Shown here: in pieces, positions 8,354 through 38,212 of the stretch | How positions within the stretch are numbered: the stretch's first letter is position 1 | Layout: each line of letters opens with the position of its first letter | DNA from: Halioglobus sp. | Lineage (GTDB): Bacteria > Pseudomonadota > Gammaproteobacteria > Pseudomonadales > Halieaceae | Assembly: GCA_029287595.1 (NCBI GenBank) | Contig: JARFQU010000131.1 | Span: 1-38,212, forward strand | Length of the DNA stretch: 38,212 bases | Reading direction: 5' to 3' | Program-made: the position numbers and the translations under genes | The notes under the pieces: generated by a model | Seen by the model: only the letters and a program-made list of their open reading frames with translations | Databases searched by the model: none | Told to the model about the DNA's origin: nothing

Positions 8354-8690
8354 CTCTGGCCTGGTTTCATCTGGCGATCCCGGGCGGGAGAGTGCTTCTC
8401 GGAGCTTGCCGAATCAAGGGGCCGGTTAAAAGCAGGTTTTTCACCAAGCGAATATCGTGGAGCGACTGGAAAACCTGCTTTTGCCCGGTCCCGCTGGCGA
8501 AGACCAAACCCGGAAACAGGCTATTTCCATAATTTGCCTAGCGACAACGGTAAGGTGCGATGAACCTTATTGATCCAGGGCGGGAAGTTGGTACCCGATA
8601 TCTCCACCCGTGATACGAGCAAAGACCAATAGCGTTCCTTTCGCAACTGCCGGGCATGGGTTACCATTCGCAGCTTCCCGATTCATTCCC
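8354..8690. other. rlpA-dacA intergenic gap
   Basis: A 337-base gap inside an otherwise tight operon. The left half is the palindromic repeat. In 8509-8690 there is only a weak promoter-like CATAAT (8528-8533) without a matching -35, and no open frame that looks coding. dacA must be transcribed by read-through or from an unrecognised promoter here. Confidence 0.5.
8363..8508 (+). repeat. Palindromic intergenic repeat, copy 1 (with 42-nt extra segment)
   Basis: Positions 8429-8488 match 20740-20799 at 59 of 60 bases. The core is an inverted repeat AAAAGCAGGTTTT (8428-8440) / AAAACCTGCTTTT (8470-8482) around an identical centre (8442-8467). An outer arm GGTTTCATCTGGCG...CCCGGGCG (8363-8386) matches copy 2 at 22 of 24 bases. 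It is partly complementary to the right flank after GCCCGG (8484-8508). Unlike copy 2, 42 extra bases (8387-8428) separate the outer and inner left arms. It lies between rlpA and dacA. It may act as a bidirectional terminator, a processed RNA hairpin or a non-autonomous mobile palindrome; the family is not recognised. Confidence 0.85.
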
Positions 8691-36130: not shown

Positions 36131-36799
36131 ATGTCCAACGTAATGCCCCATAGTGACGATGCCCTGCGCATCACAGAAATCTTCTATTCCCTGCAGGGTG
36201 AGGCCAGAACCGTGGGCCTGCCTACGGTGTTCGTTCGCCTTACCGGTTGCCCCCTGCGCTGTGTCTATTGTGACACCGAGTATGCGTTCAGCGGGGGAGA
36301 GCTCTTTACCCTTGGCCAGATCGGCCACAGCGTTGCTTCTCACCAGCCCCGCTATGTCACTGTTACCGGGGGCGAACCCCTGGCCCAGCCTAACTGCCTG
36401 CCGTTGCTTACACAGCTGTGTAATGCGGGCTACGAAGTTTCCCTGGAAACCGGGGGTGCCATGAGCGTGGCGGGCGTGGATCAGCGGGTAATCATCGTAC
36501 TGGACCTGAAAACCCCGGCCTCTGGTGAAATGGAGCGCAATGATTACGCAAATATCCCGTTGCTCAAGCCCCATGACCAGGTCAAGTTCGTAATCTGCGA
36601 TCGCCAGGATTATGAGTGGGCGCGGTTCAAGCTGGATGAGTACCAGCTGTCCCGGCGAGTGGCCGATGTGCTGTTTTCGCCCAGTCATGGCCAGGTGGCG
36701 GGGCGGGAGCTGGCCGAGTGGGTGCTGGCGGATAACTTGCCCGTGCGCATGCAGCTGCAGCTGCATAAAATTTTATGGAATGACGAGCCGGGACACTAA
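36131..36799 (+). CDS. queE: 7-carboxy-7-deazaguanine synthase
   Basis: A radical SAM enzyme making CDG in the queuosine pathway. The [4Fe-4S] ligands are Cys40, Cys44 and Cys47 in [16 protein letters not shown], within the family's CxxxCxxC pattern. FYSLQGEA and TVTGGEPL also match. The 222 residues are typical. It is followed at once by queC; queD and queF are not in the window. Confidence 0.96.
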
Positions 36800-36801
36800 C
36801 A

Positions 36802-37503
36802 GTGACTGATAACAAAAGAGCGGTGATACTGGTTTCAGGCGGCCTGGACTCTGCCACGGTCCTGGCCATGGCCAGGCAGCAGGGGTATGACTGCTATACA
36901 CTCAGCTTCGATTACGGCCAGCGCACACGCTCGGAACTGCTCGCTGCAGAGCGAGTCTCTATCGCCGTGGGTGACGTGGAGCATAAGGTGGTCAAGCTCA
37001 ACCTGGACAGTATAGGCGGGTCCGCCCTCACCGACACCGCTATCGCGGTGCCGGAAGAGCAAACTACCGGCATACCCGTAACCTATGTGCCGGCGCGCAA
37101 CACCGTATTTCTGTCCATTGCCCTGGGCTGGGCCGAGGTCCTGGGCGCCCAGGACATTTTCACCGGAGTTAATGCTGTGGATTATTCCGGTTACCCCGAT
37201 TGCCGCCCCGAGTACATAAGCGCCTTCGAAACCATGGCTAACCTCGCCACCCGGGCTGGCGTTGAGGGCCACAAGCTGACCATCCACAGCCCCCTGATGA
37301 AGATGGGCAAGAGTGAAATTATCAGTGCCGGGGTCAAACTGGGTGTGGATTACGGACTGACGGTCTCGTGCTACCAGGCCACGGCAGAAGGCCTGGCCTG
37401 CGGCAAATGCGATAGCTGCCGCCTGCGCCGGCAAGGTTTTGCAGATGCCGGCGTAGTCGACCCCACGCGCTATGTCCAGGCGCGTGTCCAAGGGTATACC
37501 TAA
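36802..37503 (+). CDS. queC: 7-cyano-7-deazaguanine synthase
   Basis: An ATP-dependent ligase converting CDG to preQ0. The PP-loop SGGLDS is at 12-17; the zinc-binding cysteines are Cys190, Cys200, Cys203 and Cys206 ([10 protein letters not shown]). GTG start 2 nt after queE's stop; 233 residues is normal. It is the last protein gene of the co-directional run before tRNA-Lys. Confidence 0.97.
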
Positions 37504-37593: not shown

Positions 37594-37669
37594 GGGCCGT
37601 TAGCTCAGTTGGTAGAGCAGTTGGCTTTTAACCAATTGGTCGCTGGTTCGAATCCAGCACGGCCCACCA
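37594..37669 (+). tRNA. tRNA-Lys (anticodon UUU)
   Basis: A 76-nt cloverleaf: acceptor stem GGGCCGT/ACGGCCC, D-arm with TAGCTCAGTTGGTAGAGCA, anticodon arm TTGGC-TTTTAA-CCAA placing UUU at the anticodon, T-arm CGCTGGTTCGAATCCAGC, and an encoded CCA (37667-37669). It lies directly downstream of queC, as in Pseudomonas, and its 3' end faces the integrase remnant. Confidence 0.98.
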
Positions 37670-37692
37670 TATTTCCCCTTTTTTCCAATTGC

Positions 37693-38017
37693 TTAGCGCG
37701 TTACCGCGCTCAACGTCCGGTGTCTCAGCACTACCAGTGCCGGAGTTTTGCCGGACTTTCCTTCACACACCCTGTTTGCCGCCTCTATGAGCTCCTCCAA
37801 CTCCGGCGCGGAGTAGTGGGTGGTGATGTCGCCGTTCTTGTGGCCAAGCAGTATTTTCCGGGTTTCCAATGGCACCCCGGCCGCGCGCAGGCGGCGACCG
37901 AAAGTGTGTTTCAAGTCGTGTACCCGTATGGGCATGTCCAGCTTGCGCCGGACCGACTTCCAGCCATTGTTGTTGATGCTCCGCACCGGACGGCCGTAGT
38001 AGGTGAAAACGTGCTCA
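37693..38017 (-). pseudogene. Truncated tyrosine recombinase/integrase (C-terminal part only)
   Basis: About 108 residues of the catalytic domain survive: FTYYGRPVRSINNNGWKSVRRK, box II VHDLKHTFGRRLRAAGV (His-x-x-Lys in place of the usual His-x-x-Arg), LLGHKNGDITTHYS with the His box and the nucleophile Tyr. The N-terminal DNA-binding part and the first catalytic Arg are missing because the frame runs into an inverted-repeat element at 38018. The open frame continues to 38082 only by reading through that element. It ends 24 bases from tRNA-Lys, the usual place of an island integrase. Confidence 0.88.
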
Positions 38018-38128
38018 GGGAATAGGGACAGACCACGGTTTTTTCTAGTTGGCGGTGTGGCCCTGCACTGAAGACAGCGCACTTTCGAAGAGTTTATGCG
38101 GTCGAACCGTGGTCTGTCCCCTATTTCC
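38018..38128. mobile_element. 111-bp inverted-repeat element (REP/RAYT-associated-like) inserted in the integrase
   Basis: Arms 38018-38040 (GGGAATAGGGACAGACCACG...) and 38105-38128 (AACCGTGGTCTGTCCCCTAT...) are complementary over about 22 of 24 positions around a 64-base centre. The GGGACAGACCACGGTT motif resembles palindromes I associate with REP-associated Y1 transposases in gammaproteobacteria; this is recollection, not a search. It carries no gene and would be a non-autonomous unit. It separates the integrase's 3' part from unrelated sequence. Confidence 0.7.
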
Positions 38129-38212
38129 GCGTCATACTACATCCGGGTGGATGCCTCCGCATCGCCTGAACAAAAACAGGCATCAAATCCCTGGACGCAA
38201 AGGCAGTAACAT
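38129..38212. other. Right edge of window beyond the inverted-repeat element
   Basis: No continuation of the integrase is readable in any - strand frame here. A small inverted repeat GCCTG/CAGGC (38164-38181) is the only structure seen. The upstream half of the integrase may be deleted or lie outside. Confidence 0.4.

Follow-up and report, generated by a model that had tools for sequence, protein, structure and literature searches.

Does the right end of this contig mark the edge of a genomic island, and if so, what element landed there? The window, that is, the whole stretch of DNA analysed here, is a complete contig (G000:C203) of 38212 b, which ends at 38212 and belongs to a Halioglobus sp. 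assembly of 3.69 Mb in 228 contigs with 94.67% completeness. At its end queE and queC lie directly 5' of a tRNA-Lys gene that is faced by part of an integrase gene, a layout which the original prediction had read as an island boundary. We conclude that an integrative element very probably entered the 3' half of the tRNA-Lys beside queC by recombination, and that its left junction makes up the final 620 bases of the window. The features on which this reading is built are the following:

36131-36799, + strand: queE, open reading frame (NCBIfam TIGR04349 QueE, 361 bits against a cut-off of 300)
36802-37503, + strand: queC, open reading frame (NCBIfam TIGR00364 QueC, 194.7 bits against a cut-off of 150.3)
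37594-37669, + strand: tRNA-Lys (TTT), the attachment gene, detected by ARAGORN, intact and with complete acceptor stem pairs
37625-37669, + strand: putative minimal attachment (att) core, the last 45 nt of tRNA-Lys, repeated at the right ends of islands in relatives
37670-37692, no strand: left-end spacer of the element, resembling the spacers in G005, G018 and G034
37693-38020, - strand: integrase stub (int1), C-terminal part, delimited by homology to intact integrases; the formal open reading frame runs to 38082
38021-38124, no strand: REP/MITE-like hairpin with 16-nt arms (38025-38040 and 38105-38120) that are 100% complementary
38125-38212, no strand: tail to the contig end, the last 88 bases, without homology to integrase loci

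Tyrosine integrases that target tRNA genes recombine the 3' half of the chromosomal tRNA with a matching copy on a circular element. At this locus int1 would have recombined the 3' half of the chromosomal tRNA-Lys in this way; the copy brought by the element would complete the tRNA, which would stay functional, and the displaced host copy would land at the far end. The window holds what is expected at the left end of a tRNA-associated integrative element, as a tyrosine integrase gene lies beside the tRNA 3' end, and the position adjoining queC is the address of PAPI-2 and pKLC102-type islands, a correspondence of address only. The integrase remnant does face the 3' end of tRNA-Lys, as had been noted, across a gap that measures 23 bases (37670-37692) and not 24, and its DNA homology to intact genes stops at 38020 and not at 38017. 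There is no GC step at the junction of tRNA and element, which counts against the proposed junction.

The open reading frame at 37693-38082 on the minus strand matches the C-terminus of Phage_integrase (Pfam, E 1.3e-6) and the phrog_1 integrase (E 1.2e-15). Alignment with intact relatives showed that about 108 of 364 residues are kept, and from residue 21 or 22 on the stub is 92-94% identical to complete 364-aa integrases encoded in four genomes of other genera. The kept portion includes His II, His III, Tyr and a Lys in the position of Arg II; Arg I and the beta Lys belong to the lost portion. As Arg I is missing, the product of this remnant should be a dead enzyme, and a copy deprived of its first ~256 residues should be unable to excise the element; what is seen is either all that is left of the gene or the portion of it that was assembled.

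The integrase homology ends exactly where the hairpin begins. The DNA fold of the hairpin has a z-score of -5.5, and six copies of its core motif are spread over three contigs, two in the window and the others on C138 and C198, once more as paired arms on C138. Owing to this recurrence, the hairpin is likely a REP-like repeat, a type of motif which we take to be found near REP transposases. The first ~256 residues of int1 would have been lost here, by insertion of the hairpin or by deletion at it. As the break lies 192 b from the contig end in an assembly of 228 contigs, the end of the stub might also be the tip of a chimeric contig, and contigs that end at the queC tRNA-Lys may, as a general warning, stop at a repeat. 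We regard such an artefact as highly improbable, since the order of stub, tRNA and queC recurs in independent records, isolates included, and the stub, with a DNA identity of 88.6-93.2% to those records, is hence not a stray copy of one of them.

To place the stub among its relatives, we compared it with 58 genomes (its own counted), 53 of which carry queC. Stub matches were present in 20 of the 58, four of them as the complete genes of 92-94% identity. The complete int1 adjoins the queC-tRNA-Lys in Chromatocurvus halotolerans DSM 23344 (G005), Haliea sp. EAC94 (G018) and G034, and it stands behind a second att copy in Haliea salexigens DSM 19537 (G028). In a wider sample comprising the best 80 of 240 integrase relatives (L129-L208), 54 of the 70 integrases with at least 250 b downstream face the 3' end of an opposite-strand tRNA within 250 b and 16 do not, against a rate of 1.8% for random positions in the same loci, so that the arrangement exceeds chance. 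Ten full-length loci among these best 80 of 240 are at least 93% identical (L129-L138), and all nine with sufficient flank face tRNA-Lys. The queC gene is on the locus in eight of the nine; the ninth is that of H. salexigens, where queC lies ~41 kb away. In the tree of 73 of the 80 integrase proteins (the other seven loci are without an integrase open reading frame of 320-460 aa) the queC clade of int1 forms a single branch with an SH-aLRT of 100, and on this tree 14 changes account for the six more frequent tRNA labels (52 rows), compared to 30.3 when labels are shuffled, and 17 account for all labels together. A more distant integrase (L145, 69%) faces tRNA-Lys too, with queC 2.4 kb on.

Two truncated int1 relatives, L146 and L207 (90-93% identity), lack a neighbouring tRNA, and this tells against the proposed junction. 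On the L207 locus the same spacer is followed by a vestige of the tRNA, its final 9 nt; such stubs can therefore stand apart from a tRNA gene. This place, near 8588-8630 of a locus of Halioglobus japonicus BC5_1, has a truncated int1 matched over residues 169-364, and no tRNA gene is present on the locus.

Comparison of the DNA indicates that int1 has spread among the relatives horizontally and recently. Four species, one represented by an isolate and three by MAGs, share 1092 b of int1 at 100% identity and have queC DNA that is 75.6-80.8% identical. The identical block in common with H. salexigens extends over 2.8-3.3 kb, from the tips of the MAG contigs to within the tRNA. Of the 45 pairs compared, 44 have a higher similarity in int1 than in queC; the pair of H. 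alexandrii and H. salexigens departs from this (queC of H. salexigens was taken from G028). Chimerism of the MAGs might weaken this finding for three of the four species; each of the contigs has its own queC.

A direct repeat of the tRNA 3' end had been named as the sign to look for, and it was found in relatives and not in the source genome: a 23-nt pattern with up to three mismatches gave a single match in its incomplete assembly, and repeats of 45-54 nt bound islands in six relatives. The far repeats measure 45 nt in G005 and in G015, 47 nt with one mismatch in G018, 48 nt in G022, 53 nt in G016 and 54 nt in G028. They lie 41.4 kb (G028), 15.8 kb (G016), 12.9 kb (G022) and 5.2 kb (G015) from the tRNA, and on a separate contig in G005 and G018. 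The pattern search missed a decayed 15-nt repeat in G034, ~24.8 kb on and beside right-end DNA that is 85% alike over 34 b. In G028 the int1 element follows directly after the far repeat, forming a tandem array. An exchange of tRNA 3' halves predicts that the displaced half be found at the far repeat, and G018 provides such a case: its tRNA has the pair T.G at 4:69 and so belongs to the two hybrids of this kind in a set of 33 tRNA-Lys sequences (that of the window counted), and its far repeat carries the matching A at that place. The other hybrid, G016, has a far repeat without the matching A, which lends no support to the half-swap and counts against the proposed mechanism. The stub of the window would have arrived by the same reaction, with an island, whole or as a remnant, following rightward.

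Several arrangements at these att sites were observed besides. The array on scaffold 7 of H. salexigens (L084-L086) consists of a 41-kb element at tRNA-Lys, prophage-like by eye, followed by the int1 element, and an IMG/VR contig of 46 kb (L260) with a 100% identical int1 is probably from the same place. In G015 (L072) a remnant of 5.2 kb retains both of its att ends, and its left end bears a 25-nt scar similar to the one in G005. No integrase was found in this remnant; the gene at its right end and a transposase-like gene are similar to genes of the C. halotolerans element. In G022 (L088/L107) the queC-tRNA pair is separated, the tRNA-Lys being ~37 kb from queC and having its own 12.9-kb island. 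Within the same genus, G002 has two att-like copies (L109 and L110, on C170 and C548) with different downstream DNA. The same short insertion, rich in GC, is present in the T-arm region of both, and element-like right ends are common to the two; the G002 queC contig stops 19 b inside the tRNA. Two tRNA-Lys genes stand in a row after queC in G042 (L036).

We compared the neighbourhoods on both sides of the tRNA in 15 genomes (105 pairs), G013 and G056 of a 17-genome set being omitted for want of the left 20-40 kb, and G005 and G018 being left out of both sets because of short right flanks. Pairs share on average 10.19 genes in the left 20 kb, 3.68 in the next 20 kb to the left and 0.12 in the right 16-19 kb. 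Collinear core genes immediately to the right in all relatives, which the original prediction had named as evidence against an island, did not appear: nothing is common to the right 0-5 kb in 103 of the 105 pairs, whereas the left 0-5 kb have at least one shared gene in all 105. One of the 136 pairs in the 17-genome set shares six right-hand genes, namely the order-level relatives G042 and G056, in both of which nadA is the next gene. No widely shared right-hand gene that could mark an empty site was found in these sets. Alignment of the window with the same-genus G001 extends to 37670, a single base beyond the tRNA; past that point G001 has just a 14-base match and a transposase-like fragment.

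Occupancy of the site was assessed in 27 loci with tRNA-Lys after queC and a right flank of more than 2 kb, and it varies between relatives, as expected for a tRNA-associated integrative element. Integrase genes follow the tRNA in eight of the 27 (G005, G016, G018, G020, G024a, G028, G034 and G045; two are partial). In G021 the tRNA is followed by an integrase fragment (E 1.4e-5), and in G015 by a remnant between att repeats; a weak profile match at 6.0 kb in G056 (E 0.0075) was left out of the counts. Local profiles, which detect related integrases only, gave no integrase or fragment in 17 of the 27 loci, and the att pattern search in the genomes of ten of these 17 gave one match per queC locus. 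As these 17 loci are also without right-hand collinearity, which counts against the proposed explanation, islands alone may not explain the boundary.

The junction of queC and tRNA-Lys could accordingly be mainly a boundary of chromosomal rearrangement, the end of a conserved block at which islands are incidental. The right flanks do differ even where an integrase was not recognised, and no collinear run was seen in the 120 kb right of G034, to which 24 right-hand stretches gave scattered matches of 23-40% apart from the G028 integrases, the closest to a run being two neighbouring G017 genes at 40% and 31%. We nevertheless consider this account improbable, as ten of the 27 loci hold an integrase, a fragment or an att-bounded remnant, the integrases of three profile groups at the site all face tRNA-Lys, and G018 and H. 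salexigens show the half-swap and the tandem array, respectively. A rearrangement boundary and island insertion may both be true at once. The proposed island boundary at the queC-adjacent tRNA-Lys finds support in the intact relatives at the same address, in the att repeats and in the loss of collinearity at the tRNA.

The other parts of the putative island were looked for in the source assembly. Queried with the right-end DNA of a relative, it gave the tRNA again, over 47 nt (E 1.9e-16), and four weak matches, the best of these at tRNA-Asn (E 0.0035). The N-terminus of int1 (257 residues) matched only part of another gene, at 30% identity (E 0.004), and int2, a second recombinase gene of the intact relatives, found nothing in the same assembly. 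These results, together with the single att copy, count against the insertion as proposed, and they can be accommodated by a particular form of it, in which a deletion from inside int1 removed the island so that host DNA follows the hairpin and nothing accessory is left. We give this form somewhat under an even chance. It agrees with the failure to find the int1 N-terminus, int2 and the right end in an assembly that is 94.67% complete, and G015 shows that such an element can decay to a remnant without a detectable integrase; with the contig stopping 192 b past the break, however, what is missing may have escaped assembly, and the relatives share almost nothing to the right. In either form, the left junction of an integrative element remains our preferred explanation.

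What the intact element looks like can be gathered from the relatives. All ten full-length loci of the queC clade carry a small open reading frame and int2 upstream of int1, with int2 of L134 3.6 kb further off. The small reading frame between int1 and int2, ~111 aa from its ATG in intact relatives, fits phrog_13517 (function unknown) and has no Pfam match; we presume it to be comparable to AlpA-type excisionases. The int2 product is of the Integrase_1 type (PF12834 and PF12835), and its catalytic residues look complete by eye. Within the best 80 of 240 relatives the small reading frame is upstream in 67 of 73, and int2 stands at the expected distance in just 21 of 65, and is therefore not a constant partner in the wider family. 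Lys occupies the place of the catalytic Arg II in 71 of 74 aligned int1-family proteins (Arg in three) and in 79 of 81 motif matches among 80 viral loci, and the other catalytic residues of the int1 family are nearly invariant. Since recently spread copies carry it, int1 with Lys at this place is probably active. A literature search for Lys at Arg II by motif strings found none, a result that carries little weight. If Lys does replace Arg II in active enzymes, this bears on the catalytic needs of tyrosine recombinases. The island beside the same integrase in G034 (L082, 1961-15128) has PADLOC matches to AbiEi/AbiEii, a type III methyltransferase, a UvrD-like helicase and Lamassu LmuA/LmuB, together with a type III restriction match that was weak. 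On a bolder reading, which we hold to be less likely than not, the stub would be what is left of a distinct and still-moving family of elements, the left end of which bears int1, with Lys for Arg II, and int2 around the small reading frame; one of its clades would be specialised for the queC tRNA-Lys, one complete case would carry several anti-phage defence systems, and the two recombinases may act together.

The kind of element described here is well known and its address is unusually busy; less ordinary are the Lys at Arg II in the int1 family and the second recombinase in part of it. The closest known systems are the island integrases of Haliea and Chromatocurvus (L129-L138), which have the same gene and address and 92-94% protein identity, and in which int1 is intact and accompanied by the small reading frame and int2, whereas the window copy is truncated. 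In SE elements, too, one end carries a pair of tyrosine recombinases that flank a further gene. Their middle gene, Tfp, is long (those below 550 aa are treated as truncated) with srap next to it, according to an excerpt of PMC10214605, and membership was rejected, as the reading frame between the recombinases of the intact relatives has ~111 aa. In Halieaceae the site is not mentioned in the titles and abstract beginnings of the listed papers on Haliea islands and queC hotspots, and we make no claim that it is unreported there. A tRNA-Lys beside queC is described as a site of islands and ICEs in P. aeruginosa and P. syringae in the available text of PMC9495688, PMC10945833 and PMC3360775. The P. 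aeruginosa site, PA0976 (queC)/PA0988 tRNA-Lys, receives crpP ICEs, PAGI-5-like and exoU islands and PAPI-1 (PMC9495688 and PMC3360775, in part), and also, as PMC3360775 supposes, PAPI-2. It has the same order of queC and then a single tRNA-Lys (excerpts of PMC9495688 and PMC3360775), and reported 45-bp direct repeats (PMC9495688), as long as the shortest repeat measured here. Its elements are described in PMC9495688 as being of the pKLC102 subtype with a XerC/XerD integrase, the crpP ICEs spanning 80-165 kb. The island site in P. aeruginosa that the original prediction had named is in print, and "PAPI-2 type" holds for the address alone. The PsICEs of P. syringae use att-2, the 3' end of a tRNA-Lys near queC, with 52-bp repeats, and are likened here by their description in part of PMC10945833. 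With these printed sites and the same-integrase islands at this address in other genera, the idea of a conserved hotspot is upheld as far as those excerpts go: islands land at the tRNA-Lys beside queC in Pseudomonas and separately in Halieaceae, where, together with one order-level relative, this tRNA gene is used by integrases of three profile groups. For annotators this tells where accessory DNA begins, in one case a row of defence genes. The address shared with Pseudomonas would speak of a hotspot and not of kinship between the elements.
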